From Strigamia acuminata (Eukaryota > Arthropoda > Chilopoda > Geophilomorpha > Linotaeniidae), in assembly GCA_949358305.1 (NCBI GenBank), contig CASHSZ010000090.1, positions 7,501 to 71,500 of the forward strand: a stretch of DNA of 64,000 nt, given 5' to 3'. Positions 9,079-54,171 of the stretch are shown in pieces (position 1 is the first letter of the stretch; each line of letters opens with the position of its first letter). The notes under the pieces are model-generated. The model was given only the letters and a program-made list of their open reading frames with translations, did not search any database and was not told the origin of the DNA. A program made the position numbers and the translations under genes.

Positions 9079-9082
9079 TTTG
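9079..9082. repeat. Target-site duplication TTTG, left copy (BEL/Pao)
   Basis: TTTG ends the left satellite flank and is repeated at 18506-18509. Joining the flanks at one copy gives the satellite phrase seen uninterrupted near 34851 and 36705, so this is a true insertion site. BEL/Pao elements typically make 4-6 bp duplications. Confidence 0.88.
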
Positions 9083-9411
9083 TGTTGCAAGACAGCGTAG
9101 AAATTGTTGTGCTATTTTATTGTCAATATTTTTTACCATTTACTTTGAGTTGATTAAAATCTTTAAGTGTTTTAATTTCCTTTGCCTAATTGGTATTTTT
9201 CACTTTTCAGATTTTTTATTGCCTATTAAAGTGTTTTGACTTGATTTTTATTCATACTTTTCAATATTCAGTAATGTTTATGCTTTGTATTGATTTCAAA
9301 TATCTTATTCCGTGCATTTATTGACTTATTCACTTGTTTTATGAGAGTTTGTGTTGATTCCGAACAGTTTTGGTGTAAATTTCGTTACCTAGCATACAAT
9401 TGCGATGCTAG

Positions 9412-9419
9412 TGACGTCA
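9412..9419. promoter_or_regulatory. CRE-like site TGACGTCA in the LTR
   Basis: A perfect 8-bp palindromic cAMP-response element sequence (CREB/ATF consensus). It is repeated in the 3' LTR at 17272-17279. That it functions as an enhancer is inference. Confidence 0.4.
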
Positions 9420-9782
9420 TTTTTCAGTTTCCCGTAAAGTTACGGTTCCGTCTTCTAACCTTTTGTTTAGTACTTTTCAAATCACTTGGAATTTTATTAA
9501 GCATTCGTTTAGACTAATTCAAGCATGCTCTTTCTATCTAGTTGCATCAAAACTGCTTTGGAAGTTCCGTTTGATTGGTTTGAACGTTCGTTTCCGTCTG
9601 CCATAAAAGCGCAGCCGGGAATGTTCATTTGGCCGATAAATTCGTATTTATTCAATCTGTGTATTTTATTCCGATGTTTTGTGAAGAGAATTGATAATTA
9701 TTCTTATAATTTAATCGATACTTTATTGATTATTTACATTTTAGTGTTTTTACATTCATTTTACGTGTAGTTTTGCCGCCGA

Positions 9783-9860
9783 TGTTATGTTCGCCGGACG
9801 CCATGTTTGATCCAACACCTTTGTTATGTTCGCCGGTCGCCATGTTTGTCCCAAGCGACG
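9783..9860 (+). repeat. 39-bp tandem duplication inside the LTR
   Basis: TGTTATGTTCGCCGG followed by CGCCATGTTTG occurs at 9783 and again at 9822, with one base change in the middle. The same pair is present in the 3' LTR 7860 bp downstream. It may be duplicated regulatory sequence. Confidence 0.75.
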
Positions 9861-10203
9861 ATTACACAATGTAACCGTTATTTTTGTATTTTATATCACA
9901 TAATTTGCATTTACTATTACATTGCGTTATTATTCAGTATGTATTCTTTGATAATTTTGTGCTTTTGTACCGATCGAAATTCAAATGTGATCGTTATGTA
10001 ATTTTCCTGGCCTGTGATTGGCTATCGTCAATCCTTTCTTTCCGAGATCGGTTTATTGCTAATATCTCATTGTTTAACGTGTTTTTTGACATTGTTGTGA
10101 TTAGCTTTTTTGTTCACCGCATTCTTGTGGTCATTTCAATGTATTTCAATGTATTTTTAATGCATTTTTTAGCAAATGCCAACTTTGCCGTAATCTTGTT
10201 TCC

Positions 10204-10223
10204 TCCGTTACCATGGTAACGGA
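10204..10223. promoter_or_regulatory. Perfect 20-bp palindrome matching the RFX X-box
   Basis: TCCGTTACCATGGTAACGGA is fully self-complementary. Its core GTTACC-AT-GGTAAC matches the X-box bound by RFX/DAF-19 factors, which drive ciliary and testis genes in animals. The copy in the 3' LTR is at 18064-18083. Binding is inferred from sequence only. Confidence 0.5.
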
Positions 10224-10348
10224 ATCTTTCGTGTATCTGTATTTCGCCGCTATCGGCCTGGCGCGTGCCATATTCGGTACTGCGCATGTGCGGTTCTCTA
10301 AGAACCAATCTAATTGCTGTAATTTCTTCAGTTATTAACCAACCTTTG

Positions 10349-10354
10349 AATAAA
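10349..10354 (+). terminator. Candidate polyadenylation signal AATAAA (5' LTR)
   Basis: AATAAA followed by a GT/T-rich stretch (tgtgttgtgttttatt), the usual layout of a cleavage site. The functional copy would be the one in the 3' LTR at 18209-18214. Confidence 0.5.
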
Positions 10355-10443
10355 TGTGTTGTGTTTTATTAGCTCTTGTTTTAGGTTTATTTTCAAACAC
10401 ATTCAATGTGTAGTGAGTAGTTTAAAAATTCTCAGGCCAACTT

Positions 10444-11406
10444 ATGTTTCTGCCACCTATTGGATACTTGGTGCAGGTGTTCTCCACATTGTTCCAGCGG
10501 TACAACAATGCCATTTGTTGCGGATTTATTGCTCTCCAGTGCGATTTTCGTACTAGCCACGCCATACGACCTTGGGCGAGCTCAAGTGTCTTGAATTTGG
10601 ATACGCATCGCCATTCCTTTCTATCTGTCTTGTTGACCTGCAACACAGATACGAAGCTTTTGGTAGCCGTGACCAGGATTCCGTCTGCAATTCGTGAGTT
10701 TTTCCAGTGCATCATCAATACGTTTGAAAAAGTGTTTGGTGCGACGGAGGAACAATACGTTCGTGTTTCGTCACCCATGTCAAGAGTCAACGTTCAACGT
10801 GACAGAAGTTACGACGGGGACTTCTTTGGCGGCGAAAACGAACAAAAGTGTGCATGCAGTTGGAGTTCAAGGTCACAACACTGGATAACACAACGCGTCG
10901 TGTTGGAAAGCGGATTCGCCCCTGGAATAATTGCATTTTACAGTGTTTTGCCTTATGAAATTGAAATTTTGGAGATTTTGGTTATTAAGGGGAACTGTAT
11001 CAAGTGTCTTTATGGGATTTTGGTAGTTACATTTGTTGGTTTTCGGGAAAATTTCGATAAAGTGTCTATTTTACAACTTTTGAAGTGTTTTTTCATTGCA
11101 TGCTTAGTTCTCCACTATAACCGCCATAAGCGGGGGAGATTTAGTTTGTTTAGAGTAAAATTGACTAGTTTCACGTTGCTTGAGCTGTCAATTAAGTCAA
11201 AATTTAATGATAGGAGTTATTGGCGTGTTTTGTTGCAAAACGAACCGTCAATTGTTTTCAAAAGAGTTTATTGGCGTGCTTTGTTGCAAAACGAACCGTC
11301 AATTATTTTCAAACTGTGCAGGGTATTGTGTCACGTTTTATTTACGTACACAAAAACCGCTCAAATTTTTGGTCATCCTCGATTGGCCAAACATTTGATA
11401 TTCTAA
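10444..11406 (+). CDS. Leader ORF spanning LTR end and primer site (320 codons), doubtful
   Basis: An ATG-started frame of 320 codons begins in the last 200 bp of the 5' LTR, crosses the candidate primer site and ends in the leader, upstream of gag. The product resembles no family I know and is rich in Phe, Leu and Cys. A 51-bp tandem duplication at 11221-11322 lies inside it and keeps the frame (17 codons each); both substitutions between the copies change the amino acid. The 3' LTR copy of the frame is cut short at 18573, as expected. It may be an upstream ORF or simply an open stretch. I see no evidence of selection, so I would not call it a gene without expression data. Confidence 0.2.
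   Translation: MFLPPIGYLVQVFSTLFQRYNNAICCGFIALQCDFRTSHAIRPWASSSVLNLDTHRHSFLSVLLTCNTDTKLLVAVTRIPSAIREFFQCIINTFEKVFGATEEQYVRVSSPMSRVNVQRDRSYDGDFFGGENEQKCACSWSSRSQHWITQRVVLESGFAPGIIAFYSVLPYEIEILEILVIKGNCIKCLYGILVVTFVGFRENFDKVSILQLLKCFFIACLVLHYNRHKRGRFSLFRVKLTSFTLLELSIKSKFNDRSYWRVLLQNEPSIVFKRVYWRALLQNEPSIIFKLCRVLCHVLFTYTKTAQIFGHPRLAKHLIF
10661..10677 (+). promoter_or_regulatory. Candidate primer-binding site of the BEL/Pao element
   Basis: TGGTAGCCGTGACCAGG lies 15 nt after the 5' LTR. It starts with the TGG complementary to a tRNA CCA end. It is close to the tRNA-His-type site of the non-autonomous element (53376-53390) but has one extra A after TGGT. The tRNA identity is not settled, and the spacer is longer than usual. 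Confidence 0.45.
11221..11322 (+). repeat. 51-bp tandem duplication in the leader
   Basis: TGGCGTG followed by TTTGTTGCAAAACGAACCG begins at 11221 and again at 11272 (TGGCGTGC in the second copy). The copies differ by a few bases. The period is a multiple of three. Confidence 0.85.
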
Positions 11407-11430
11407 AATTCTCACGTGTCACCAAGGACC

Positions 11431-11568
11431 GTGAAAATTGAGTGCTTTTTGGGGGATAAAATTAAAAAGTTTATTCTCTTTAAAGTTAAAACAAAAACCG
11501 TGAAAATTGAGAAATTTTTGGGGGATAAAATAAAAAGGTTTATTCTCTTAAAAATTAAAACAAAGTTG
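11431..11568 (+). repeat. 69-bp tandem duplication in the leader
   Basis: GTGAAAATTGAG followed by a TTTTTGGGGGATAAAAT block and TTTATTCTCTT occurs at 11431 and again at 11500. The period is a multiple of three and the copies have diverged slightly. Role unknown; such repeats may modulate packaging or translation. Confidence 0.8.
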
Positions 11569-11641
11569 AATTGTCATGCCCGTTTTTATCTGTTCTTTCC
11601 AAATTTCACAGCCGAATTTTTTGTGAGAGAGGACAGAGAAA

Positions 11642-14600
11642 ATGGCGGAACCTACAATGAGAGATCTTCTAAATGAGGATCAAATCGAAGTGCAACAACA
11701 ACGTTGGGAATCGCAAGTCACTGCAATGAATCATCTGTTGTCTATATCGGAGAAGACAGCAGATCCAGGTGAACTGGAAGCGCTGGTGCAAACTGCGACC
11801 CCGAAAGAAACGAGAATAGTCGGTGCGCTGAATGATCTACAGGAATATTCGCACCACGGCTATTATCTAGAATGCATTGACAAGCTTGAGACTATGCAAG
11901 CAAGAGTGGATCTTCTTCGCACGAGATACGAAATTTCAAAGCGATCACTTCCAACTTTGGGAGGAAGATTAAATACGTCGACAAGCTCAAACCAGAATAC
12001 AACCTTGAACGCGACAGCAACGTTTAGAAAAAATTCGAAGCTGCCCAAACTGGATTCCGTAAAATTCGACGGAGATATTTTGAAGTACAGAACATTCAAA
12101 AGCAACTTCGAGACCTCCGTACACAAGGATCCAGACCTGAGTAACATTGAAAAACTCCAGTATTTACAAACTATGTGTACTGGAGAAGCGGCAATTCTCA
12201 TCTCAACTTTTCCCCTGATCGAGGAATCCTATGACCTTGCAAGAGAAGAACTCGAAAGACATTTTGGTGATGAGGATGCCCAACAAACTGCGTTAATAAA
12301 ATCAATTCGAGAATTAAAAGCTGTTTCAAGTGTATATCCAACTAAAGCGATAAAAACAAATTTGACAAAGATTTCTGCGACTATTAGACTTCTCGAGCAA
12401 CTAAAAATTCCTATTCAGACTTCCGGAGCTTTCTTATTGCCCGACATAATTAGCAAGTTTCCAACTTCAATGGCATTAAGATTTTACCAAGTTCACGGAA
12501 TTCAAAATAAGAACATTGTTACGTTGCTCAATTTCTTTGTGAATGAAGTTGCGATGGCCGAACGAACTGAAAGCGTTTCTGAAAAATCGAAAAAAGACAA
12601 GAATGAAAAATCTGAAGTGGAGAAACCGAAAGTGAAAGGTTCAATGACCACGTGCGCAGCTACTCAAGACGCCAAGCAGTCTACTAGTGCAAAAACGAAG
12701 AGTGAACCGAAATCTGAAAGCAAGAATGCGCCTTCAAGGACAAGCAAGTGCATTTTTTGTGATGATGAACATTTAAACGGCGCTTGTAAAAAGGATTTCG
12801 AAATTAACGCGAAAATCGAAATAGTTAAGAAAAACCGACTGTGTTTTAATTGTTTCAGAACTGGGCATAGAGTGGGAGACTGCAAGGTCAAATTTTCTTG
12901 TAAACATTGTGGTGGGCGACACCACTCCACAATATGCAAAAAATCCGAGGTGAAGAATTCAACGAGCGCTGCGGAGAAGCCGAAGGAGCCACAAGTAACA
13001 ACACATGTTTCATGCGCAATCTCGACGACTCTACAACTAATGATATTCACCGCGGACCTCAAAACAAAATCAGGAGGAACTCACAGCATTCGAGGGATGA
13101 TTGATCCGGGAAGCCATCGATCGTTCATTACAAAAGAATTTGTTGAAAGACTGAAACTGAAAAAATGCGGCAGTGTCTCTGCCACCACACAGAGATTCAA
13201 CGACTCGTCTCCAGCAGCCACGGACTATGATGTGTTTAATGTCACATTGCAAAGTAAAAATGACACTCAAGATTTGAAACTTTCAATGCTTTCTGTGGAA
13301 AATTTGCCACGAGTGCAGGGCATTCTTAACTCATCAATAATAGACAAGGTGAAGAAGTTAAACCTTGAACTTGCTGAAGACCTACCAGCTAAGACTTCTC
13401 AAATCGACGTGCTTTTAGGAGTCGACGTGTGGTGGAAGGTCGTTAAGGACGGCAAGAAAAAAGTAAACGCAGATCTTGGATTAATAAATACAATTTTTGG
13501 TTGGGTCTTGTCTGGAGCGGCGGGGAACACCAATTTATTCGAAGATGATGAAGAATTGACAACATGTTGCAACACATGCGACTTAGACATCCAAGAAAAA
13601 TTGGACAAACTGTGGAACTTGGAAGCAATCGGAATAAATGCGGGAGAAAAAGAATCCGACTTTATTCGCGATCGATTCGAATCAACTACGAAGCGTCTAG
13701 ACGATGGACGTTATGAAGTCATGCTGCCATTCAACGGACAGGAAGTCGACTTGGAGTCCAATTGGGAATTGGCCATGAATCAACTGGCCAACACGCTCAA
13801 AAGAATAGATGCCAACGAGGACTACAAAAAACGTTACGACGAGTCCATGTGGCAGTATATTCACGAAAATCACGCGGAGGAAGTCCCAAAAGAAGAGCGT
13901 TTTCTGAAGAAAGGAACATACAATATACCTCACCATCCTGTAATCAAGGAGGATCGAGACACGACGAAATTTCGAGTAGTGTTCAACGCGTCTTCATCCA
14001 AGAAGGGGAAACTTTCCCTCAATGACTGTTTATTTCCGGGACCCTCCCTTAATCCAGACTTAATACTCGTTATTGTGAGATTCCGTCTCTATTGTATTCC
14101 AATAATAGCAGACATTAAGCAAGCGTTTCTCCAGGTTATGATCAACCCAACTCAAACAAACTTTTTACGTTTTTTGTGGGTCGCTCGTGACTATTTCAAA
14201 GAGCCATACTCATGGCAAAATTTGTGGAATAATCTAATGGTTCTGCGAATGATTGTCGTGCCATTTGGCGTCATTTCTTCTCCATTCCTCTTGTGTGCGA
14301 CGATTAGGAAACAAGCGAAACAATTTGAAGAAACTCATGCAAAAGAAGTCGACGCACTCGATGATGGAATCTTCATGGATGATTTGACGTCAGGAGGAGA
14401 TTTTACAGCCGACACAACATCACATTGCGAGAAACTGAAAATGATATTAGACGACGGAAAGCTTCCCCTCGTGAAGTGGGCGACCTCAAGCAAGGACGTC
14501 TTCAACAATTTGAAAAAAGAAGGTTTTCATATGCGAGGAGAGGAGTTTTCGGACTTAGGAATTATAAAAATGCTTGGAATATTGTGGAACACGGCAGAAG

Positions 14601-14737
14601 ATGTCATGATGTTTAACATTCCGACAATTGAAAAAATTCCGAATACGAAGCGAGAAGTTGTTTCATTAATGGCTTCCATATTCGATCCAATGGGACTCAT
14701 TGCTCCTGTTGTTCTTCAAATGAAACTGCTAGTTTAA
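11642..14737 (+). CDS. BEL/Pao Gag-protease-reverse transcriptase (1031 aa, ends at a premature stop)
   Basis: The start ATG has a strong context (A at -3, G at +4). Residues about 130-290 form a Pao-type gag (DUF1759-like: 'KLPKLDSVKFDGD', 'LERHFGD'). A Lys/Glu/Ser-rich linker follows. Three Cys/His knuckles begin at C370, C401 (CFNCFRTGHRVGDC) and C420. An aspartic protease of the DUF1758 type has its active site at D488, read as DPGS rather than the usual DSG/DTG. The reverse transcriptase spans about residues 760-1031, with 'ADIKQAFLQV' and the catalytic box FMDD (D913, D914), a variant of YVDD. The frame ends at TAA 14735-14737, before RNase H, and the same frame stays open afterwards. 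BEL/Pao elements normally make one Gag-Pol frame, so this stop is a break and not a natural end. Gag and protease could still be made; RNase H and integrase could not, short of readthrough. Confidence 0.9.
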   Translation: MAEPTMRDLLNEDQIEVQQQRWESQVTAMNHLLSISEKTADPGELEALVQTATPKETRIVGALNDLQEYSHHGYYLECIDKLETMQARVDLLRTRYEISKRSLPTLGGRLNTSTSSNQNTTLNATATFRKNSKLPKLDSVKFDGDILKYRTFKSNFETSVHKDPDLSNIEKLQYLQTMCTGEAAILISTFPLIEESYDLAREELERHFGDEDAQQTALIKSIRELKAVSSVYPTKAIKTNLTKISATIRLLEQLKIPIQTSGAFLLPDIISKFPTSMALRFYQVHGIQNKNIVTLLNFFVNEVAMAERTESVSEKSKKDKNEKSEVEKPKVKGSMTTCAATQDAKQSTSAKTKSEPKSESKNAPSRTSKCIFCDDEHLNGACKKDFEINAKIEIVKKNRLCFNCFRTGHRVGDCKVKFSCKHCGGRHHSTICKKSEVKNSTSAAEKPKEPQVTTHVSCAISTTLQLMIFTADLKTKSGGTHSIRGMIDPGSHRSFITKEFVERLKLKKCGSVSATTQRFNDSSPAATDYDVFNVTLQSKNDTQDLKLSMLSVENLPRVQGILNSSIIDKVKKLNLELAEDLPAKTSQIDVLLGVDVWWKVVKDGKKKVNADLGLINTIFGWVLSGAAGNTNLFEDDEELTTCCNTCDLDIQEKLDKLWNLEAIGINAGEKESDFIRDRFESTTKRLDDGRYEVMLPFNGQEVDLESNWELAMNQLANTLKRIDANEDYKKRYDESMWQYIHENHAEEVPKEERFLKKGTYNIPHHPVIKEDRDTTKFRVVFNASSSKKGKLSLNDCLFPGPSLNPDLILVIVRFRLYCIPIIADIKQAFLQVMINPTQTNFLRFLWVARDYFKEPYSWQNLWNNLMVLRMIVVPFGVISSPFLLCATIRKQAKQFEETHAKEVDALDDGIFMDDLTSGGDFTADTTSHCEKLKMILDDGKLPLVKWATSSKDVFNNLKKEGFHMRGEEFSDLGIIKMLGILWNTAEDVMMFNIPTIEKIPNTKREVVSLMASIFDPMGLIAPVVLQMKLLV

Positions 14738-16882
14738 GCAATCTGGATTAGAACAAAAAACTGGGATGAAAAGATTCTTGACTCAGAGAAAAAAGAAGTC
14801 GAAGAATGGAGTCAAGACATACAAAAATTGAAAGAATTGAAAGTACAACGTTGGCTGCAGACTTATTCCGGTCAAGACATCACTTTAGAAGTTTTCTGTG
14901 ACGCAAGCACAAAGGCATTTGGCTGTTCAATTTTTGTCGTCAATCTGGAGGGCAAAAGAACTTTATTGTTGAGTAAATGTCGTATTGCGCCGACGAAAAA
15001 AGTAACTCTTCCTCGACTTGAATTAACTGCAGCAGTGGTTGGAGTGCGAATGACCAAGTACCTGTTAGAAAACTTTCTTCCCGGGTACCCAGTCACTGAA
15101 GTGCGATACTACTCGGACTCCACCATAACTTTAGCATGGATAAATTCGGACAAGAACGTATGGAAGCCATACGTCTCGAACCGTGTGCAAGAAATTATTT
15201 CTTCCACCAAACCCGAACAATGGTCTCACGTACCAACGGAATTTAACCCAGCAGATTTATTGACTCGACCACATAACTCAAAAACATTGATGCAAAATAA
15301 ACTTTGGTGGTTTGGAGTTGATGTCTCAAAACTAGAAAAAACAGAAATTATACAAGAGATTCTTCCAGAAGAGGAACGAAAAATTGTAGTGATGACTATT
15401 CAAGTTAAGGAAAGTTTTATTGGACAATTTTTCAAACGTTTCCGGAATTACAACAAACTTTTGAGAGTTTTTTCGTATATTTTGCGATGGAAAAACAAAC
15501 TTTTGCGCGGTGAGCCTCTCTCGCCACTCGAGTTAGAGGACAACCAATTGAAGATCCTGCAGTTTTCTCAGAAATTACATTTTTCTGAGGAGATTGATGA
15601 TGTGAAAAACAAAAGAAAACTGTCTAAACATTCCACCCTACGCAATTTCGAGCTCTTCATTGACGAGGACGGATTACTTCGACTTCGTAGCCGCTTGAAA
15701 AAATCTTTATTGACATTTGATGAAGTGTATCCAATTATTTTGCATTATGATAGTTGGATAACAAGACTGTTAATTAAAAAAGTGCATTTGGAGTTGCTTC
15801 ACAGTGACATAAGCGAAACTTTGTATCACCTACGCGAACAATTTTGGATTATAAGAGGACGAAGAACTATACAAACAGTTATTCGAGAATGTGAGATTTG
15901 CCGACGAGGAAAACTTGCACGCAACAACCCTTCAACGGGTGACCTTCCTGCTGAACGTGTGACACCAGCGGCGCCATTTCAAAACACCGGAGTTGACCAC
16001 TTGGGTCCCATTTATGTCGGCAGCAACAAGAAAGAAAAGAAAAAAGTTTATATCCTGCTTTTCACGTGTATGGTGACCCGATCCCTACATTTAGAAGTAT
16101 CAGAGGACCTTTCTGTGCCAAAGTTTTTGCTAGCGATGAGAAGATTTGGGGCACGCCACGGATACCCCGGGAAGATTTTCTCTGACAACAGTAAGACGTT
16201 TGAGCACGGAAGCCTCGAATTACAATCATGGGGGAAACTCATCGGTCATTCAGATGTGAAAACTTTCCTATCCGAAAAGAAAGTGCTTTGGACTTTCATC
16301 CCACCGCTGTCTCCATGGATGGGCGGAGCGTGGGAGCGCTTAGTCCGCTCAGTAAAAAATAAACTTCGAAAAACTTTGTTGCGCAGCACTGTAGACTTGG
16401 AAACTCTCCAAACATTGGTCTTGGAAATAAGTTCAGTGCTAAATTCCCGACCCTTAAGTTACGTCCCAGACAGTGTAGATGGTGGTAGAATTTTGGCACC
16501 TGAAAACTTTCTAACAGGAGGCATGCCAAAATACGTAATAAACAAACAACTGAGTGCAATTAAAAAATCAGATTTAAGAAAACTGGACATTAAACGACGC
16601 CAATTTATTTGGGAGTTCTGGAAAATTTGGAAAAAGAGTTACCTCATGCAATTGAGGAATTTTTATGAATCCAAAGGTGATAAGTTCTTCAAAAACCCTA
16701 AAGTAGACCAAATAGTGCTTCTAGAAAAAATGGGTACTAACCCATATTTTTGGCCACTTGCCAGGATAAAAGAAATTTTTCCCGGTGAGGATGGTCAAAT
16801 CCGTGTGATAAAAGTTGTGCTACCCGATGGACGTGAGTTGAAAAGGTCAGTCAAGCATGTGAGAGCCCTAGAACTTGAGTGA
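14738..16882 (+). pseudogene. BEL/Pao RNase H-integrase half, separated from its start by the stop
   Basis: This is the continuation, in the same frame, of the upstream gag-pol. The first ATG after the stop is at 14828, giving 684 residues, and the numbering here uses that ATG. RNase H carries D25 (FCDAS), 'LELTAA', 'YYSDST' and 'NPADLLTR'. Integrase has a zinc-binding H320-H325 and C355-C358, then the catalytic triad D390 (VDHLGPI), D453 (FSDN) and E503 (GGAWERL). The C-terminal domain after about residue 595 (FWKIWKKSYL ... WPLARI) is the DUF5641-like tail typical of BEL/Pao. No further frameshift or stop is present. The 90 nt between the stop and the first ATG are open and belong to the connection region. 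Without readthrough it would not be expressed from the normal start. Confidence 0.9.
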
Positions 16883-16942
16883 TTTTTTTTTTTGTGATTT
16901 TTTGCGTGGTTCTCCATCTCTGTCCTCTCGCCGGCAATTCGC
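16883..16942 (+). other. Pre-3'-LTR segment lacking a purine tract
   Basis: Sixty bases between the pol stop and the 3' LTR. It is T-rich, then pyrimidine-rich (tctccatctctgtcctctc), and ends GCCGGCAATTCGC. The expected polypurine tract next to the LTR is absent on the coding strand. A 13-base piece (tctctgtcctctc) is the reverse complement of the leader sequence at about 11627-11640. Confidence 0.7.
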
Positions 16943-18505
16943 TGTTGCAAGACAGCGTAGAAATTGTTGTGCTATTTTATTGTCAATATTTTTTACCATT
17001 TACTTTGAGTTGATTAAAATCTTTAAGTGTTTTAATTTCCTTTGCCTAATTGGTATTTTTCACTTTTCAGATTTTTTATTGCCTATTAAAGTGTTTTGAC
17101 TTGATTTTTATTCATACTTTTCAATATTCAGTAATGTTTATGCTTTGTATTGATTTCAAATATCTTATTCCGTGCATTTATTGACTTATTCACTTGTTTT
17201 ATGAGAGTTTGTGTTGATTCCGAACAGTTTTGGTGTAAATTTCGTTACCTAGCATACAATTGCGATGCTAGTGACGTCATTTTTCAGTTTCCCGTAAAGT
17301 TACGGTTCCGTCTTCTAACCTTTTGTTTAGTACTTTTCAAATCACTTGGAATTTTATTAAGCATTCGTTTAGACTAATTCAAGCATGCTCTTTCTATCTA
17401 GTTGCATCAAAACTGCTTTGGAAGTTCCGTTTGATTGGTTTGAACGTTCGTTTCCGTCTGCCATAAAAGCGCAGCCGGGAATGTTCATTTGGCCGATAAA
17501 TTCGTATTTATTCAATCTGTGTATTTTATTCCGATGTTTTGTGAAGAGAATTGATAATTATTCTTATAATTTAATCGATACTTTATTGATTATTTACATT
17601 TTAGTGTTTTTACATTCATTTTACGTGTAGTTTTGCCGCCGATGTTATGTTCGCCGGACGCCATGTTTGATCCAACACCTTTGTTATGTTCGCCGGTCGC
17701 CATGTTTGTCCCAAGCGACGATTACACAATGTAACCGTTATTTTTGTATTTTATATCACATAATTTGCATTTACTATTACATTGCGTTATTATTCAGTAT
17801 GTATTCTTTGATAATTTTGTGCTTTTGTACCGATCAAAATTCAAATGTGATCGTTATGTAATTTTCCTGGCCTGTGATTGGCTATCGTCAATCCTTTCTT
17901 TCCGAGATCGGTTTATTGCTAATATCTCATTGTTTAACGTGTTTTTTGACATTGTTGTGATTAGCTTTTTTGTTCACCGCATTCTTGTGGTCATTTCAAT
18001 GTATTTCAATGTATTTTTAATGCATTTTTTAGCAAATGCCAACTTTGCCGTAATCTTGTTTCCTCCGTTACCATGGTAACGGAATCTTTCGTGTATCTGT
18101 ATTACGCCGCTATCGGCCTGGCGCGTGCCATATTCGGTACTGCGCATGTGCGGTTCTCTAAGAACCAATCTAATTGCTGTAATTTCTTCAGTTATTAACC
18201 AACCTTTGAATAAATGTGTTGTGTTTTATTAGCTCTTGTTTTAGGTTTATTTTCAAACACATTCAATGTGTAGTGAGTAGTTTAAAAATTCTCAGGCCAA
18301 CTTATGTTTCTGCCACCTATTGGATACTTGGTGCAGGTGTTCTCCACATTGTTCCAGCGGTACAACAATGCCATTTGTTGCGGATTTATTGCTCTCCAGT
18401 GCGATTTTCGTACTAGCCACGCCATACGACCTTGGGCGAGCTCAAGTGTCTTGAATTTGGATACGCATCGCCATTCCTTTCTATCTGTCTTGTTGACCTG
18501 CAACA
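16943..18505 (+). repeat. BEL/Pao 3' LTR (1563 bp)
   Basis: Direct repeat of 9083-10645 with the same TGTTGCA...TGCAACA ends. It differs at two positions that I found (A for G near 17836, A for T near 18104). It carries the second copies of the CRE (17272), the X-box palindrome (18064) and AATAAA (18209-18214). Confidence 0.95.
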
Positions 18506-18509
18506 TTTG
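18506..18509. repeat. Target-site duplication TTTG, right copy (BEL/Pao)
   Basis: TTTG directly follows the 3' LTR and continues as satellite (tgctaagtcaactg). It pairs with 9079-9082. Confidence 0.88.
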
Positions 18510-43097: not shown

Positions 43098-43102
43098 AAA
43101 GC
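43098..43102. repeat. Target-site duplication AAAGC, left copy (Copia)
   Basis: AAAGC flanks the Copia insert on both sides (the other copy is at 50012-50016). Five bases is the normal Copia duplication length. Confidence 0.92.
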
Positions 43103-43582: not shown

Positions 43583-43590
43583 CCCCCTCT
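43583..43590 (-). promoter_or_regulatory. Copia polypurine tract
   Basis: On the - strand AGAGGGGG abuts the 3' LTR. This is the standard primer for plus-strand DNA synthesis and it fixes the LTR edge at 43582. Confidence 0.88.
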
Positions 43591-43601
43591 GGACAACTTT
43601 G

Positions 43602-46600: not shown

Positions 46601-48335
46601 TGTCTTTATTAGACAATTTCACTCCAAAAATATCTGTTGACTTTTCCATGTCAACAATGCCCTTTGTGTGTAAATGTGCCATCCGGCCATGCCAGTAACT
46701 AATATCTAAAGCTTTATCCGCTTTCCCATCAGACTTAACCCCGTTAATTCCGCTGGCCGGAAGCGCACTCGCATCAGTTGCGCTAGAAACGATTTTCTCT
46801 GGAGTTTTAATGCCCTTCTTGCCTTTTGATGTGTTCAACACTTCACTGTAAGACGGTTTCGTAATTTCGCTCGCCTGCGTTACGCATTCACTCGAGTTAG
46901 GGTTAGATACGCTATTCTTAACAACATTAACACTTTCAGTAACATTCAATGTATTAGTAATCGGATTACTTATGCCAGGTGCTTCCGCATGCGTCGGAAT
47001 TGCACTTGCATTTACAGAAGGAACCGCAATCTGACAAGAACTCTTGTACATTCTGTCCGACTGACGCATGGCTGTCAGTATTGGTTCTGTAATCCGTTGT
47101 TTGAAAATGACCATCTTTCCTTCACCAACACGGGTTACATACCCAGCCTCATCAGTGCGACCGAGGGAAATCAAATTCTTAGTGAAATTAGGTGCGTAAA
47201 ACACATTCCTTAATATGAATGGGTGCCCTTGAGATTTATCTTTCGATTCCAATTTAATATCTCCCACCCCGTCAATTTTGGATGAACCCTCACCCAATCG
47301 CACTGAATAATTAGAAAGGGGCTTGTAATTCACGAAACCGTGTTTGGTGAAAGTAAAGTGGTCGGTGGCGCCAGTGTCCACATACCAAGCCATGTCTTGC
47401 ACCCCCGATGATGTAACAAATGAAGACACGGTTGTCGTTGATTGTCCGATGGTCTGTTGAAGTGATGTATAAAATCCTTCCAGTTCCTCAAAAGAGCTCA
47501 GATTAGCTTTTCTTCCCCGTGCACGTCCTCGGCCTTTGCCGCGTCCACGAGACTGAGAAATATTCGATGCAGATTTGGTCGGCACAATCGTAAAGCCCTG
47601 TTTCGATGAAGGGCAATCGCGTGAAAAGTGGCCTTTTCCGCCGCAGTTATAGCAAACAACTCCTTTTTGTTGCGGCTTTTGCGGATTCGTCGCATAAGCA
47701 CCAGATGCAGATGCGTCTCCTGGCGCAGTTCCACCATGAGTCCTGTTGTACTCAGCAAGGAGCCTTTCTTTAACTTTGGCCACTGTGAAGTCGGCCTTGT
47801 CCCAGTGGTACACAATGGATTTTAATGCCTCGTATTCAGGCCCGAGGAAATCCAAATATTGGAACGCGATTTCCTTTTCCGTTAAAGTAATATCCACGTC
47901 CTTTAACTCTATCGCCTTCCTGTCCACCCTAGAAGTGAACACGACCATGTCGTCCCCTGGAAGCATTTGGAGCTGTAAAAACTCCCGGCGTAGCCTGGCT
48001 TGTCGCGCCATCGTGGTCGGTTGGTACGCAGTTTTTAATGCGTCCCACGCTTCTTTTGCTGTTTTATTTGCGACAGCAACCCCTTTCTGCGCTTCTGTGC
48101 AGCCGAGACAAATGGAGGAACGTGCACGGGATTCTCGTGCCTGGAAATCACGCTTCTCCTTCGGGGAGGCCGTTGCGGCCAACGCTGGCTCGGTTCCAAT
48201 TACGTGAGCCCAAACTCCTTGGTGCTCTAAGTAAAGCTGCATGTCAACGGCCCAAGACTCATAATTTGCGCCGTCTAATTTGCGAATGTTTGCATTAAAT
48301 GGCTTGGAAAAATCTTCCATACTTTCACTAGCCAT
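43602..48335 (-). CDS. Copia Gag-Pol polyprotein, intact (1577 aa)
   Basis: I start at the ATG at 48335, whose context (A at -3, G at +4) is good; the frame is open for 21 codons further upstream but without ATG. Domains in order: Copia-type Gag to about residue 220; zinc knuckle 228-241 (CYNCGGKGHFSRDC); aspartic protease with D320-T-G-A; pre-integrase zinc region (WHGRMAHLH ... CDACMKAK); integrase core D613, D676, E712 with exactly 35 residues between the last two; a Pro-rich linker; reverse transcriptase with 'SKWIYKIKRD' and Y1261-V-D-D; RNase H with D1427 (FTDAS), 'MESEF' and 'ADLLTK'. There is no stop or frameshift, and all catalytic residues I looked for are present. Length is typical of insect Copia elements. 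The stop lies 12 nt from the purine tract. It probably encodes a working element. Confidence 0.95.
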   Translation of the reverse strand: MASESMEDFSKPFNANIRKLDGANYESWAVDMQLYLEHQGVWAHVIGTEPALAATASPKEKRDFQARESRARSSICLGCTEAQKGVAVANKTAKEAWDALKTAYQPTTMARQARLRREFLQLQMLPGDDMVVFTSRVDRKAIELKDVDITLTEKEIAFQYLDFLGPEYEALKSIVYHWDKADFTVAKVKERLLAEYNRTHGGTAPGDASASGAYATNPQKPQQKGVVCYNCGGKGHFSRDCPSSKQGFTIVPTKSASNISQSRGRGKGRGRARGRKANLSSFEELEGFYTSLQQTIGQSTTTVSSFVTSSGVQDMAWYVDTGATDHFTFTKHGFVNYKPLSNYSVRLGEGSSKIDGVGDIKLESKDKSQGHPFILRNVFYAPNFTKNLISLGRTDEAGYVTRVGEGKMVIFKQRITEPILTAMRQSDRMYKSSCQIAVPSVNASAIPTHAEAPGISNPITNTLNVTESVNVVKNSVSNPNSSECVTQASEITKPSYSEVLNTSKGKKGIKTPEKIVSSATDASALPASGINGVKSDGKADKALDISYWHGRMAHLHTKGIVDMEKSTDIFGVKLSNKDMDQCDACMKAKKTRAGFPPIGQILTKGILDLVHMDVWGASQTKTLGGGSYFLLIVDDYSRFMWIYIMKKKSDVLGIFKIWQREIERSTFKKVKTIRTDKGGEFVSKEWEDYAQQEGIKCERTNAYSPEMNSVAERANRLILEGVRAMLIESELPKRLWGELAVTLVYVKNLYPHPKLNNRSPYNVFYNKRASVRHLRCIGSKCYTHIPAQQRHSKLEPRAWVGALVGYCTDTKGYRIWDPTRNKIFGSKHVTINENEYWHEKGNGIPKKGKEQTQSFEYFNGSDLGLESDEETPTPVSLAPVHVPVPKPSQPLPGQSPPIQGLPVQQVVPPVVKPLPPAVDLTLGKPPLPTTPKPLVFKRPKLIEFTGEPTDEVSDDEEVFQEALLASPNVRGGQEAVAVGGVPLLKLNMNDWDIKPYVRQTGRDAGTTYAHYVAPNKKRLRSRIEALHWCQENGYEFEADLFDFSGKTQNVELPNPFAGFAGCCALEPNTYEEAIKGERKSEWVGAMQEEIDIFNERKVYEEVDCEKDQQLLGSKWIYKIKRDNTGEIRRHRARLVAQGFKQRPGIDFTEVFSPVVNFVVILVLFCMLVVLMNWRDTHADIKAAYLYGDLDEVQYMGIPKGFQTPQNVGKCWKLYKALYGLHQSGRMWFEKLHDRLLHIGFKPVPGFNCVYCMDRDVVLVVYVDDLVIFSRNEKIEKDVLSWITEHFQMVNLGPVTHLLGIEFTRVNGKILVHQRKYIERLCNHFKIDGSHKVHLPGAVGTMIMGMKKDEQLDTVFPYRSLVGSLLFLASRTRPDILFSTIVLSQYNERHSQRHINMLLQVLRYLKSTEDYCIDLSRCKSALLTVFTDASYATDVDQRRSFGGHVVFLGGVPVSWSCRKQKMTTLSVMESEFVAIVDGVRELIWLKRLFNMSVMFDYFGNLQPCVLADSTAAIQYSKNRVENKANKHIEVRFHYLRDLYESKVFDIRHVSGRLNVADLLTKWLARPRLTELCGHIFDL

Positions 48336-49531
48336 GATGCGATGCGTAGCACAATACACAAAATCACTTAGAATCACAACCCTTGCAAAATATAACACTT
48401 AACCCACCAAAAATTAGGCGAAAAATAATGCAATTCCACCCGGGGTACAGCTCAATAAGTGAGCACAACTTCTCCGACTAGTCGCTACAAGGACCTCCGA
48501 CCGACACACCTGGGGTCGCGGGAAAATCCCCTTGCTTCGAGCAAGCCTAGCCGAAAATAAGACGACACTAGGCGAATGCCTAAAGGGTGCCGAATATATT
48601 AAAGGGCCCAAACAAAACCTTAATATTATACAGAGTTTCACGACAACCCAAAAAAAAAACACTTTTAAGATGTTAAGATGGCAAGTTGATGTGTGAATTG
48701 CGGGAGGAATCGTCGCAAGTCCAACGCTGGCTGCTTGGAGCTCCCTCGGAGCACAGGCGCACACCGGGGTGCTAACCTGTGTGTGTGCGGCAATAATAAC
48801 CTCGCACACTTCGCGCACGTCCGCGCCTTCGCAATTGCCGTATTGCAAAATTGCGGTTCTTCAATGTCGAATGCACGTGCGTATTCCGTACGCACGGGTT
48901 CTCCAACGTCGGTACGTCGTTCGAGACGTACGTGGTGAACGTTGATCGTTCGTGATGCGAAATATTCGCGATGATCGCCGCCGCACTCGTATCTGGCGAA
49001 AAATGCACAAAATCGACGAACTCCGCCGATAAATTAGTGCTAATGCACGCAAAACACCTCACACTGGTGTAAATAATAAATACAGTTACTTGAAAACGCT
49101 CGTAGAATCCAAAAACCGCTGAAAAACGATGCTGGAAACAGCCAAAACACTTAACACCTGGTCGGCGCCATCTTGGATTCCCGAAAATGTGATCCAGGTT
49201 GGGAAAAACAGTTCCGTGTGGTTTTAGCAGTTTCCTCCTGCTAAATGCCGGATATTTTAACGAAAATATCTTGTCCTCACCGCTAATGATGAAAACGCTG
49301 GCCGCTCCACGCTGAAAACCGCTCAAAATCGTCGAAAAACGAATAATTTCGACTTCGCCGACCCCCGATGTTGGCTGCGCTACTCGGCGACGTGCGGGAA
49401 ACGTTCCGTGTCGCCCCGCCTCCGTTTTCCGTGCGTCGTGGCCGTCCGCGACGTGGAAAATCGCCGAAAAATCGCCGAGAATTGCTTTAAATCGACAGGC
49501 ACTCACCAAAAACGCATGCCTCTGCTACCAC
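48336..49531 (-). other. Copia 5' leader (about 1.2 kb)
   Basis: Lies between the 5' LTR and the gag ATG. It is much richer in CG dinucleotides than the satellite or the LTRs. A frame on the - strand runs open from 49509 to 48772 (245 codons) but begins without ATG, and the product resembles nothing known. A good splice-donor match (GGTGAGT on the - strand, plus coordinates 49501-49507) lies about 12 nt after the primer site. Whether this leader is spliced is unknown. Confidence 0.6.
49520..49530 (-). promoter_or_regulatory. Copia primer-binding site, initiator tRNA-Met
   Basis: On the - strand TGGTAGCAGAG follows the 5' LTR by one base. It is complementary to CTCTGCTACCA, the 3' end of animal initiator tRNA-Met. 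Confidence 0.85.
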
Positions 49532-50011
49532 TGTTGGCCTTTAATCTTAAATAAGGTGAGTTGAAGCAACTTTCAAGGTTTTGCATTACTAGCACAAATT
49601 GTGCCGCCATCTTTAATGCAGTGGAAAAACATAAGCAATACAGTATACACGGTTTGAGGTTATTTGACCTCACAAACTATAAGAAGGACAAATCACTATT
49701 GTATTCAATTCGATTTGTCCTGTACAATGTTTAAACATAAACAACTTAAAACAGAACAAGTTCTTAATACAAAATGCTCATAAGAGCAGACGACAATTAG
49801 ACAAATCATTATATAAAGGTAAATCAGTTGTGGTAACGAAACACGCATTAGATAAAAAGCAATAACAACTGATCTGCAATTCCGGGACATAATACAATGA
49901 TAAACTAATCGCGTAACAATCGCGCTAATTCGGAAACGCACGAAGTAATCTCTCCATCGTAAATCGGAACTGACTGTGACAACACTTGTCCCTAAACTTT
50001 ACATATCAATA
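49532..50011 (-). repeat. Copia 5' LTR (480 bp)
   Basis: Appears identical to 43103-43582. It carries the promoter copy that would drive the polyprotein leftwards on the map. The outer end again reads TATTGATATG on the - strand. Confidence 0.93.
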
Positions 50012-50016
50012 AAAGC
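50012..50016. repeat. Target-site duplication AAAGC, right copy (Copia)
   Basis: Matches 43098-43102. It marks where the non-autonomous element was split. Confidence 0.92.
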
Positions 50017-52828
50017 ATGAAGCTCAGGCAATGCGAACCATTCGCAGCAACTGCCACGCAAAGGCGTTGACCGCACCCTGACTTGACATGAACCCACGAA
50101 ACCGCTAAGAGCAGAGAATAAAGAAAGAAAGGAAAGACGTAGTCAGGTGACTGTGTAAACCAACTGCGACCTCTTGTCCACAGCGACAAGGAAACACGCG
50201 CACGCTGACCCATCGACCACAACTTTATCTAACTAACAAAAGAAAAACGGTTCAATTATCTAAAAAAAAAACGAGCACGTTCCGTGCAAATAAATACCGG
50301 CAAAAACGTCAATATTATCACTAAAGCTATTGGCCAAGTATGGCCTCACAAGGGAAACTAACAAACTGGAACTGTGAAAACCAGCAAGAATTCCAAAACA
50401 CTAAACTTTCTGCTTTTTTTTTTCGAAGAGGGAATAAGTCCGTACCCAAATAATCAATCCATTTCCTCCCCACGAGAAAAGAAAGGAAAGGGGCCTGCTT
50501 CTATTTGAAGATCAACAGGTGTCAAACGATACTGAAAAACGTTGGAAGCAGTGCAACTGCAACCAAATGAAGCGAAGCTACACTTCCTGCACGAAAACTA
50601 ATCACGTCGTTGAAAAGAAATTAAAACCGGTGGCTATCTTTCAACCGAGCTGCGCTTTACGAATGCGCCTTGAACAAGGAGGTACCCGATGGACTGCACG
50701 TCCGCACTCGGGCCACCGTGTAGCCTGTTGTGAGCAGACTACCACGAAGACTGAAACTTCTTTAACCGAGAGGGAAATAGAAACTAGATCTAGTTAAAAC
50801 CCCATGCTCCAATAAGGAGGCTACCGTATGAACGCTTGGCCCACCCCGAGTCGGAACCAATATGATTGAACCGAGAAACGAGAGAAGAGGGGGGGTTGCT
50901 TGACGTCCCTGATTGCGAGGGGCGTCACACATAGACATGAGCAGAAGGACTTGCCAGTTGCCAACCGCATTACTGGAACCGGTAAGCAACTGCAAGTCGA
51001 CAATTGACTCGCTCACATACCCATTGACCACATCGTCGATCAGCAAGCCGACTTCCGGAAATCGCCACTCTACTGAAAGCACGTGTTGTCCAATGACTAA
51101 AACGTGTTGCCGAGTGCCGGCGCCAAGAAGGCCGCACACACACGTCCTTCGACCCATCCTAGAGTGGGCTCCCTGCCTAGTGCATGTCTGCCTCACTGCA
51201 GAGCTAGGGATGAAAGACTAACAACAACTACTCAGTCGCGGGAAGCAAACGTAGAAATAGGGGCCGCCAAGAGGCGCAGGGACATTGTCTCGGACACGAC
51301 ATCTAACAGAGTATGGCAGTACAAACCTGCCCTCTGAAACACATCGAATGGCAGTCCTTGCTGTGCACAGCAAAAACGACCATCCAAAACAAGTACCTAT
51401 ATCCTAACGCCACGCTAGCTAGCCGCAACCCAAAAATAGCAAGCAAGCTATTTCCTAAACGAATAAGCTAAAATGTCCAAATTCTAAGGTTGCCCCAAAG
51501 AACTAGAATAACTAAACTCCCTTTTTTAAACGATAAAAGGCGAGACTAATCACTAATGAAGACTCATGAAACGCTACGGACGTTTCCACGAAGAGAAAGC
51601 GAAAATGCAGAACGTACATCACCAGCGGTAGACACTGGGTGCAGCGGTCAACAACAGAAACTGGACTTGCCCAGTGGGCGGTGCGGATCGGCTGCTCTAA
51701 ACTTCCAGCACCGACAGAAGTCACACGCCTTTCTAAATCCAAACCCACTTGCAAACAAGTCGTATAACAATCTAAACTAACAGAGATTGACGGACAGGTA
51801 AGAACCGACTGACCTCGCGGGCCAGCGCTCGCTCAGCAAGACATGAGCAGCAAAAGAACGAATCTTGTTCTAAAAACAAGAAACGTTCTACAAACACACG
51901 AATACAAACGGGTGTGCCCTCTCCCGAAGCGGAGAGATGATCGACACCAGAGCTCACGAGGAAACTCGTGCGGCACACGAAAAACATTGGACACAAAACG
52001 TAAAGACCAGAGGTCGTCCACATTCCAAACACAAGAGCAGGCTCACATGACGAGAAGAAGCTAGATCACTCAAGGACCCCCCTGACCGCCGCTCTGATAG
52101 GCGGGAAGGACGAGGAGAAGGAACTGGTTGGCTCACAATAGCTAGTAATTTAACTTTAGCGTAGGGCAGAAAGCTAAAAGCGGGAGTTAATCGACCCCGA
52201 GCTGACGACTAACTGGCCAACACCACTAAAAATTTGCAAATGTGACGACGCTCCTGTCATTAAGCCTAAAAATTTCTTAAAAAGACTACACGAAAAAGGG
52301 AAAAACCCCGGGAGATCAAAGAACTCAAGTCCAAAGAGCTAATAACGTGGTAAATTGGCAAACTCGATTAAAAAGGGAAACTTGGAAACAAGTAGCTTTG
52401 CTTCTCACATATTAAACCAAAAATTCTTACCAAAAACGTGAGTGAACAAAGAATAAAGCTATTAACCAGCACAGGCATAAATGCGATCAGAAAATTAGAC
52501 TCCCTTATTGAATCCAGACACAGAAAGCCAATAAATACGTACAAATCATTCTTTGGCACTTAAACAATGAACTGAGGACAATAGCAACCTAACCGTAAGC
52601 GAGGAGGGCAAAAACAGAAGTTTAGGGTTTAAGGGGACTCCAAACAAGGCGCAAATAGGCGTGGAAACTAGCTACACTTGCACAACGACGTATGCAGAAG
52701 CATGAAACAGAACTAACGCCCCAAAACTCCCAAAACAACCACAATTTCCCCCAAAAACCTTAAAATTAACATTTGATGAAAACGAGAAAATATAATCGAC
52801 AAAAAAAACGAAATCTTCATGGCCGACT
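50017..52828 (-). other. Central internal region of the non-autonomous element, no recognised gene
   Basis: About 2.8 kb without any retroelement motif on either strand. Open frames are short (144 codons or fewer), overlap on both strands and resemble no family I know, including 50762-51196 (-) and 50519-50797 (+). It is Lys/Arg/Thr-rich when translated on + because the strand is A-rich. It may be cis-acting filler or eroded coding sequence. Confidence 0.5.
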
Positions 52829-53374
52829 CTAGTACATTGCGTTGTGTATAACTGGCGGCCGACTGACGCTTGAAGAGTGACTCTTCCAAACTCGGTGACC
52901 ATTCTGTGTGCGCTGACGGCACGAATCTTTTGGCGGGACTGTCCGGTACAACTGAGAGAACTCGCTCTGCTGCTGAAGAAACAACTCGACTGGAATCTTG
53001 ACCGCGTCGCTTGTGAGACGGCGCACGTCTGTGTGGACACAGCCTCGTACTGTCCAACGAACTGGGCACACGAAATCCTGGAAAATCTTGCCGAAACTCT
53101 CTCCATCGACGATCCCGAAGTGGTCGCTGCATTTCGCCATACGACGCACTCGTACTGGGCGAATCTGAGACGAATTTCGCCATCCCGAGCAGCAATTCTC
53201 GATTTGACCGACAGCCACACGCATTGCGCTTGTGAATGCGCTGGCTTCACACGATGCGTCTGTCGTCACTAAGCGCTGGCAGCCTCCACTGCAATTACCG
53301 ATCTTGTTTCCGAAAATGGCGGCAATGTCACCCATTTTCGAACTCACGGCAACCTGACGACACCTGGCTAGCAT
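52829..53374 (-). CDS. Hypothetical first ORF of the non-autonomous element (181 or 168 aa)
   Basis: The first ATG after the primer site on the element's strand is at 53374 (181 residues). A second ATG at 53335 has a stronger context (aaaATGGG) and gives 168 residues starting MGDIAAIFGNK. It occupies the gag position. The product is Cys- and Ser/Arg-rich without a zinc knuckle or other motif I recognise. Two further - strand frames and the + strand frame 52874-53272 are also open here (the last lacks an ATG and ends in CACECAGFTRCVCRH), so openness alone proves nothing: the local sequence is GC- and CGA-rich with few stops. It may be a gag remnant, a captured host fragment, or chance. Confidence 0.3.
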   Translation of the reverse strand: MLARCRQVAVSSKMGDIAAIFGNKIGNCSGGCQRLVTTDASCEASAFTSAMRVAVGQIENCCSGWRNSSQIRPVRVRRMAKCSDHFGIVDGESFGKIFQDFVCPVRWTVRGCVHTDVRRLTSDAVKIPVELFLQQQSEFSQLYRTVPPKDSCRQRTQNGHRVWKSHSSSVSRPPVIHNAMY

Positions 53375-53375
53375 C

Positions 53376-53390
53376 CTGGTCACGGCACCA
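53376..53390 (-). promoter_or_regulatory. Primer-binding site of the non-autonomous element, tRNA-His type
   Basis: On the - strand TGGTGCCGTGACCAG starts 4 nt from the LTR. Its first 12 bases are complementary to GTCACGGCACCA, the 3' end of animal tRNA-His. It sets the element's orientation. Confidence 0.75.
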
Positions 53391-53394
53391 ATTT

Positions 53395-54167
53395 TGTTTC
53401 TAGCAGTGCTTGAAGACCGTGTTGCACTCTAGAAGACATTTGAAAATGGTTAAAATAAATAACCCTATTTACCAGAACTTGTGAAGAATCCCAAAGAAGA
53501 AAGTCCATTACAGGAAAAAACCTTGGTGTGAAACCTGTAAAGTGAGCTGTGAACATGTTGGGACAATTCAATACTATTGTGCTCAAGTTAGCACACAAAA
53601 ACGAATTTATTGTAAAGTTAAAATCTATCAAAACATTACACATAAGAGAGGAGAAAATCAACGTTACTTAGGACTAGAAAAAACATATAACAAGTCAGAG
53701 TAGTTGCTGCGCAACCTACAACAATTAGAGCAGCGGCTCTTAGCAACGAGTGGCAACAATCGCTCGCAAGAGGCGAATTGTCCCTCTAGTGACAAAATGA
53801 TAAAGCGTATACAAGAAAATACACAGTTTCGAGTATGAAATCATTACAAAAGGCACAAAACCGTAATAAATTAAGACAAAGTGTTTCAAATAAATGAACT
53901 AACCTAGGAACTAACAGCAGCGACTCTTTGGACGAATCCAAGCAGTAAAACTCCAAAGAATCAAAGAAAAGATACAAGATTACCTTAAAAAAGACAGCTT
54001 AAATCAGGTAATTCACCGCTCCCACTTCACAAACTACACGAAATTCATTTAACATTTAGCCAAAACTTAAGCTGCACTATTAACTAAATACAAACTTAAA
54101 TAATTGATCAATTAAAGCAAATCCGCTATTGCGATAGCAAAAATCCATGTTGCACGTGCTCGCAACA
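53395..54167 (-). repeat. 5' LTR of the non-autonomous element (773 bp)
   Basis: Appears identical to 41418-42190. On the - strand it starts TGTTGCGAGCACGTGCAACA, in which the inner part forms a short stem (GTTGC...GCAAC). It abuts the satellite at its outer end. Confidence 0.92.
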
Positions 54168-54171
54168 GCGC
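54168..54171. repeat. Target-site duplication GCGC, right copy (non-autonomous element)
   Basis: Differs by one base from GTGC at 41414-41417. Satellite continues at once (taagtcaactgcgatg), with a type B monomer. Confidence 0.6.

Follow-up and report, generated by a model that had tools for sequence, protein, structure and literature searches.

Two retrotransposon families share integration sites within a 140-bp centipede satellite monomer

Introduction

The K258R mutant of human immunodeficiency virus type 1 (HIV-1) integrase is reported to prefer positions 6 and 69 of the alphoid satellite consensus, in distinct monomers (PMC8933506). Weak palindromic target motifs are described as general among the Drosophila long terminal repeat (LTR) families studied, Pao included (PMC3276498), and einkorn centromeres are reported to harbor a pair formed by the autonomous RLG_Cereba and the pol-less RLG_Quinta (PMC11302176). 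Here, we analysed a 64,000-nucleotide stretch of the centipede Strigamia acuminata (assembly GCA_949358305.1, 237.5 Mb in 157 contigs; contig CASHSZ010000090.1, positions 7501–71500), referred to below as the window. A tandem repeat search (TRF) showed that the window is a 140-bp satellite array interrupted by two LTR elements, namely E1, a BEL/Pao retrotransposon, and E2, an LTR element in which no own pol was recognised. We followed both families across the genome and compared their insertion sites along the satellite monomer.

Results

Shared integration sites in the satellite monomer

Monomer positions were numbered from base 1, the first T of TTTGTGCTAAGTC. After merging, the genome-wide junction sample, whose composition is given below, held 34 E1 and 20 E2 insertions in the satellite, with 13 E1 and 17 E2 insertions elsewhere. 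The E1 target centres fell in clusters at 2.5 (3 insertions), 5.5 (2), 10–10.5 (6), 14.5–16.5 (3), 20.5–22 (3) and 130.5–135.5 (9), and the remaining ones at 43.5, 54.5, 81, 84.5, 88.5 (2), 100.5 and 122.5. The E2 centres lay at 2.5, 5.5 (3), 10.5, 14.5, 16.5, 19.5, 21.5, 34.5, 35.5 and 43.5 within bases 1–44, and at 84.5 (3), 85.5, 94.5, 100.5, 115.5 and 122.5 beyond base 44.

Two insertions were counted as a same-site pair when their target centres lay within 0.6 bp, and the expected number was obtained from 139 rotations of the monomer. Same-site pairs numbered 33 within E1 (4.0 expected) and 6 within E2 (1.3 expected, p = 0.003). Between E1 and E2 there were 26 such pairs against 5.3 expected, a number as high being reached in 0 of the 139 rotations. 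Without the window pair, 23 cross pairs remained (4.9 expected; 0/139 rotations), while the mirror-image control yielded 4 cross pairs with the window and 3 without it. When each distinct site was counted once and the window pair was left out, 10 of the 16 E2 sites matched one of the 21 E1 sites (rotations gave 2.5 on average and 6 at most). Type A monomers alone gave 18 cross pairs against 3.1 expected (0/139 rotations). These results demonstrate that the E1 and E2 families share a list of integration sites in the monomer.

The initial annotation had suggested plotting the junctions along the monomer, with a sharp peak at TTTGTGC speaking for targeting and a flat distribution against it; plotted in this way, the 34 E1 and 20 E2 insertions followed neither pattern. 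The TTTGTGC sites (target starts 1–4) received 5/34 E1 and 4/20 E2 insertions, or 4/33 (p = 0.014) and 3/19 (p = 0.016) without the window pair, a moderate enrichment, and AAGT, GTCT and CCTT were about as hot in the sample. Distinct target centres numbered 21 for E1 and 16 for E2; the one sharp peak of strictly site-targeted behaviour was seen in neither family, and a single peak at TTTGTGC was rejected. A flat distribution was rejected for E1 (Kuiper and Rayleigh p = 2e-4, the simulation floor) and, with respect to site reuse, for both families; the broad-scale distribution of E2 alone does not reject it.

Fully specified junctions were also counted in the whole genome, with up to 2 mismatches allowed, the counts being lower bounds; the flat expectation was ~0.2–0.3 per site and orientation. 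E1 in forward orientation at AAGT (9–12) was found at 9 places, 3 of them outside the mapped sample and two of those 6.6 kb apart in one contig. E2 in reverse orientation at CCTT (83–86) likewise gave 9 places, of which 6 were absent from the mapped sample. E1 forward at GTGC was found at 3 places, none of them new and two being merged duplicates. Insertions of E2 at GTGC (4–7) were almost all in one orientation, with 9 reverse places (6 outside the mapped sample) against 1 forward; for E2, the whole-genome counts are thus in line with the moderate enrichment at TTTGTGC in the sample. These counts may be inflated by duplicates that escaped detection, and the AAGT and CCTT patterns were picked from the mapped sample. 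A cold-site control in one orientation gave 0 places, with ~0.2 expected if flat and so with almost no power.

A target motif learned outside the satellite

We built a base-preference table from 38 non-satellite junctions, 19 per family (the right end of L025 is probably rearranged). The resulting motif was weakly palindromic and not AT-rich; read outward from the LTR, and in rough terms, the first duplicated base was not T, C was favoured at the second position, A was avoided at the fourth and G was favoured at the sixth. Scoring of the satellite insertions with this motif gave an area under the curve of 0.72 for E1 and 0.78 for E2 (0.68 and 0.76 on distinct sites), and twice the log-likelihood difference between motif and flat models was 37.6 for both families together. 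With the motif derived from E2, no other rotation predicted the E1 sites as well at three widths (6, 8 and 10), and p was 0.02 at width 4; the motif derived from E1 predicted the E2 sites best of all rotations at all four widths. Thus, an independently learned motif predicts part of the satellite insertions. The integrase sequence preference proposed in the initial annotation is borne out to this extent, by the reuse and sharing of sites and by the partial prediction from outside, and not as a sharp preference for TTTGTGC.

Composition of the junction sample

Across the genome we found 169 starts and 182 ends of the E1 LTR, and 290 starts and 152 ends of the E2 LTR. Taking half of the LTR-start counts, we estimated ~85 E1 and ~145 E2 copies. 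Among the matches listed (first 100 places per search), 79 E1 and 92 E2 groups were formed, and 60 regions for E1 and 40 for E2, plus the window, were analysed, amounting to about half of the estimated E1 copies and a quarter of those of E2 and taken in listing order, not as a random draw. An outer junction was present in 91 of 102 records, giving 71 E1 and 53 E2 junctions, with 51 E1 and 31 E2 in the satellite class; the 11 records lacking one were dropped (L073, L083, L058, L062, L064, L066, L067, L013, L020, L026 and L046). E2 rows that represented internal primer-site variants were also dropped (L099, and a single junction from each of L030 and L035).

Records merged as single events were L077/L088, L025/L027, the two LTRs of L061, and L038/L094, and two ends were joined into one insertion in L017/18, L040/41, L054/55 and L056/57. 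L012/L014 was counted once; the junction search hints at two insertions 27 kb apart, and splitting them would strengthen AAGT. L076 (C5:12411213-12411388), initially placed outside the satellite class, was counted after visual inspection as two additional E1 satellite sites, since 11 bp of satellite remain between its two E1 ends. Its two E1 LTR starts, one of which belongs to a variant subfamily, stand head to head at sites 1–4 and 134–137, a second case of adjacent insertions in one monomer.

The satellite accounted for 34/47 E1 and 20/37 E2 insertions of the sample. Genome-wide, 47,037 monomers were found, covering ~6.7 Mb or ~2.8% of the assembly as a lower bound. This excess can be explained by targeting or by survival in gene-poor DNA, and the data do not separate the two. 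The idea that the elements settle in a safe repeat, put forward in the initial annotation, is therefore compatible with the excess, which retention would produce equally.

Structure of E1

The features of E1, which lies on the plus strand, are as follows.

9083–18505, plus strand: E1, BEL/Pao LTR retrotransposon of 9.4 kb with termini TGTTGC...GCAACA (LTR match, letters, Pfam)
9083–10645, plus strand: 5' LTR, 1563 bp, 99.87% identical to 16943–18505 (blast)
16943–18505, plus strand: 3' LTR (blast match to the 5' LTR)
9079–9082 and 18506–18509, plus strand: target duplication TTTG, monomer positions 1–4 (letters)
10661–10681, plus strand: primer-binding-site-like stretch TGGTAGCCGTGACCAGGATTC, 15 nt inside of the LTR (letters)
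11627–16879, plus strand: coding region in two frames, 11627–14734 and 14738–16879 (open reading frames and Pfam)

An in-frame TAA at 14735–14737 splits the two frames within the Pao peptidase domain. Pfam matches comprised DUF1759, DUF1758, Peptidase_A17 (1.7e-24), Integrase_H2C2 and DUF5641. The Pao-type peptidase with its pol neighbours, the LTRs with inverted termini and the 4-bp duplication, TTTG on both flanks, place E1 in BEL/Pao, as had been proposed. The E1 proteins gave no match to an RVT family in Pfam at 0.001, nor to a chromodomain, a CR-like domain or any other known chromatin-tether domain in Pfam, a search that novel tethers would escape.

In the 19 E1 copies with both flanks, the duplication measured 4 bp in 14 and 5 bp in 5 (L015, L022, L053, L060 and L063). 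At the right end of L027 (C1:66115448-66125447), the 3' LTR was followed by 10 letters normally found behind the 5' LTR (CAGATGCGAA), and satellite with a matching duplication, ACAGT, began directly beyond these letters. The extra 3'-end bases seem to have been carried in with the inserted DNA.

Structure of E2 and its relation to E1

E2 was assigned to the minus strand, opposite to E1 as the initial annotation had reported, because a primer-binding-site-like stretch at 53373–53390 lies on that strand. Its features are as follows.

41418–54167, minus strand: E2, 12.7-kb LTR element lacking a recognised own pol and split by a nested Copia element
41418–42190, minus strand: left LTR, corresponding to the 3' LTR (blast; end placed by GCAACA)
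53395–54167, minus strand: right LTR, corresponding to the 5' LTR (blast match)
41414–41417, plus strand: left target duplication GTGC, monomer positions 4–7 (letters)
54168–54171, plus strand: right flank GCGC, one base off the left GTGC (letters)
53373–53390, minus strand: primer-binding-site-like stretch TGGTGCCGTGACCAGGAT (letters)
43103–50011, minus strand: nested Ty1/copia element with 481-bp LTRs and duplication AAAGC at 43098–43102 and 50012–50016 (LTR match, Pfam)

The E2 LTRs matched over 776 bp at 100% by blast, overrunning the LTR end by 3 bp as a chance extension, since GCG follows on both sides. The nested Copia, which the initial annotation had not mentioned, makes up about half of the E2 length, and E2 copies without it measure ~6 kb. 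It encodes a gag-pol of 1598 aa (43605–48398, minus strand) with Pfam matches to RVT_2 (5e-57), Retrotran_gag_2, rve and others. Apart from this, the E2 span contained no Pfam pol, and five longer frames scanned in the un-nested copies L030, L034 and L044 gave no Pfam match at 0.1.

E2 duplications are 4 bp long. The duplication GTGC attributed to the window copy was recovered on its left flank and is imperfect, the right flank reading GCGC. One-base mismatches occurred in 2 of the 12 E2 copies with both flanks (the window, GTGC/GCGC, and L033, AAGG/AAGT), and the LTRs were identical in both. These mismatches may have arisen by conversion between monomers.

E1 and E2 both end in TGTT...AACA, have mostly 4-bp duplications and carry primer-binding-site-like stretches that are similar. 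The E2 ends (TGTTGC...GAAACA) and primer-site-like stretch resemble those of E1 without being identical, and they vary among E2 copies. The ungapped form TGGTGCCGTGACCAGGAT was present in 2 of the 15 E2 copies shown (the window and L043), with an extra insertion in 9/15; in E1 copies, the same letters were exact in 2/16 and carried one extra base in 14/16. This stretch is putatively complementary to the 3' end of tRNA-His. No similarity beyond the satellite was detected between E1 and E2 by blastn, and none between the 326-aa upstream frame of E1 and the 302-aa frame of E2. The common sites, ends and primer-site letters together make a shared or related integrase likely, and E2 probably moves in trans with the enzymes of E1 or of a relative.

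The satellite array of the window

The satellite occupies the following parts of the window.

1–812, opposite orientation to the rest of the window: reversed stretch of the same satellite (TRF and letters)
803–9082, plus strand: array left of E1, whose last bases are the duplicated TTTG at 9079–9082 (TRF and letters)
18506–41417, plus strand: array between E1 and E2, monomers mostly 140 and 147 bp
54172–64000, plus strand: array right of E2 (TRF; opening bases read by letters)

The satellite switches orientation at 803–812. Monomer spacing in 18506–41417 seems to follow a higher-order unit of ~2,701 bp; for instance, 300 bp at 19667 and at 22368 are 100% identical. In an alignment of monomer types A and B the first difference is at base 19, so that the two window insertions lie shortly before the divergence, as had been described. 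TTTGCGCTAAGT occurs in 0 monomers of the window, whereas TTTGTGCTAAGT matches 284 times on the plus strand. Looked up in the literature, the satellite letters matched no named satellite.

Discussion

Given the observed list of sites, its recurrence, its sharing between families and its partial prediction by the motif, we consider it fairly probable that BEL/Pao-type integrases with a common weak palindromic target preference inserted both families, with an unexplained broad bias in E1 in addition. The satellite would present a few favoured spots once per monomer, and because these spots recur in every monomer, both families would hit the same ten or so sites repeatedly, the TTTG and GTGC of the window being two of them. 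E2, lacking a recognisable pol, would depend for its movement on enzymes supplied by E1 or a relative, and E1 would add a broader preference, from about base 120 across the boundary to base 25, by way of accessible or linker DNA.

Several results weigh against this explanation. The motif was built on 38 junctions and accounts for part of the sites only, and the E1-derived motif is weak on E1's own sites (rotation p = 0.014 to 0.16 by width). Among 140 sites, the motif ranks TTTG 64th and CTAC 120th, which were hit 4 times and 2 times, and GCCT (82), ranked second, received 0 insertions. At the best-fitting weight (0.35–0.4) the motif predicts fewer coincidences than observed, while a weight of 0.75 gives about the E1 number but overshoots for E2 and between the families. 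On a broad scale, the E2 distribution by itself does not depart significantly from evenness (Kuiper p = 0.19, Rayleigh p = 0.34). In the strictest subset, from which known or possible duplicates and odd structures were removed, 17 cross pairs were found against 3.9 expected, and 2/139 rotations were as high. Same-site E2 copies differ by 1–3 of 40–60 flank letters, though their lengths differ, and L035/window, L035/L091 and L033/L098 show a single flank-letter difference on a side.

An alternative that we regard as unlikely places the cause in chromatin: a phased nucleosome on each monomer would leave the boundary open or favourably rotated, and any integrase would land there. E1 insertions are indeed centred on base 2.6 (Rayleigh 0.565, p = 2e-4), and 27/34 fall in a 46-bp zone that starts at base 120, crosses the monomer boundary and ends at base 25, its limits, unlike the Rayleigh test, having been drawn after seeing the data; the opposite stretch, 45–80, received 1/34 E1 and 0/20 E2 insertions. 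The broad E1 excess survived every motif weight tried (Rayleigh p <= 5e-4), with a zone p of 8e-4 at full weight. However, 10/20 E2 insertions lie in the zone, which is no preference beyond the motif, and the two families differ in zone use (Fisher p = 0.035). A 10-bp rotational period gave resultants of 0.38 and 0.48 over all insertions, but the signal is weak when each site counts once (naive p = 0.08 and 0.09), and its phase differs between the families (1.8 vs 4.5). A crude dinucleotide score for nucleosomes placed the best dyads differently in the two monomer types and was not taken as evidence of phasing. Moreover, exact base-level reuse appears to exceed what accessibility alone would give. 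The E1 zone excess is not explained by sequence, and its likeliest reason is that a phased array leaves this DNA accessible or as linker. The phased linker envisaged in the initial annotation fits the broad E1 zone, but E2 lacks such a zone and the weak 10-bp period does not show phasing to be the cause.

Less probable still is that a few old insertions were copied with the satellite, the recurrent sites being copies rather than events. Copying does occur: L025/L027 have a common left flank, L077/L088 have identical 60-bp flanks, and in L061 (C11:395278-400406), where a pair of identically flanked solo E1 LTRs is separated by 2,966 bp, a solo LTR seems to have been amplified along with the satellite. 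Nevertheless, these duplicates were merged before counting, and the remaining same-site copies differ in flank letters, in orientation or monomer type, in the length of the duplication or of the element, or in LTR sequence. E1 copies stand in opposite orientation at AAGT, GTCT and CTAC, and unmerged same-site E1 copies show 2–5 differences per 60 flank letters in comparisons within one side and monomer type, and one pair of unlike types shows 4; some same-site pairs, known from opposite sides only, allow no flank comparison. Three AAGT copies compared over ~1558 LTR bases showed 33–77 differences, whereas the two LTRs of one copy, where both were found, differed by 0–8 in E1 and 0–2 in E2 (L014 was excluded, its two LTRs belonging to different insertions). 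The few differences within copies indicate young insertions, and the larger differences between copies indicate that the same-site copies compared are separate events. In addition, the sites are common to two families without mutual blastn similarity beyond the satellite, and the excess of cross pairs persists in the strict set.

The observation that started this work, that the window sites TTTG (1–4) and GTGC (4–7) start 3 bp apart and overlap by one base, was confirmed, as was the estimate of about one chance in twenty. Pairs within 3 bp made up 7.2% of the 680 E1-E2 pairs measured, against 5% if flat, so the coincidence carries little weight; by itself the window pair proves nothing and is a weak sign of a real effect. 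That chance alone lies behind it is very improbable. Such closeness is common enough (23/139 rotations give as many pairs) for the window pair by itself to be a coincidence, but the cross-pair excess in the sample without the window pair refutes chance for the families as a whole.

Beyond the shared target preference, it is conceivable, though we think it doubtful, that the E1 integrase is drawn to satellite chromatin and reads the nucleosome phase, that the pol-less partner borrows the enzyme, and that the array serves as a safe landing pad. If true, this would be, to our knowledge, the first natural BEL/Pao case of such targeting; among the titles and abstract openings surveyed, no study of BEL/Pao target sites in a satellite was found. 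With its tens of thousands of nearly identical targets, the satellite constitutes a natural integration assay, which here distinguishes a preference for exact sites from a broader bias that chromatin may have produced. The site list ties a pol-less family to a BEL-type integrase, and targeting versus mere survival of retroelements in satellites becomes testable in a small genome.

Comparison with known systems

Nested plant LTR retrotransposons resemble the present families in a weak palindrome preference, and their insertions are reported to correlate with predicted nucleosome occupancy; that study covers nested and non-nested plant elements and, by its abstract, gives no satellite-monomer positions (PMC6911290). 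Closer in kind are the Drosophila families, in which a weak palindromic motif is reported to extend past the target duplication and to be alike within a clade; Drosophila Pao, however, is described with 5-bp duplications and a low-information AT-rich motif, whereas duplications are mostly 4 bp in E1 and 4 bp in E2 and the motif is not AT-rich (PMC3276498). RLG_Cereba and RLG_Quinta parallel E1 and E2 as partners with a similar primer-binding site and LTR ends that are concentrated in the same chromatin, but they are reported to have a CR-domain integrase and partly common LTR sequence, whereas E1 and E2 are of BEL/Pao type, without a CR-like Pfam match or blastn similarity (PMC11302176). With HIV-1 K258R the likeness lies in a retroviral-type integrase that favours single positions of a satellite monomer (PMC8933506). 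In the HIV-1 case a point mutant favours two spots, whereas in S. acuminata two natural families use about ten common spots, part of them predicted by a motif (PMC8933506).

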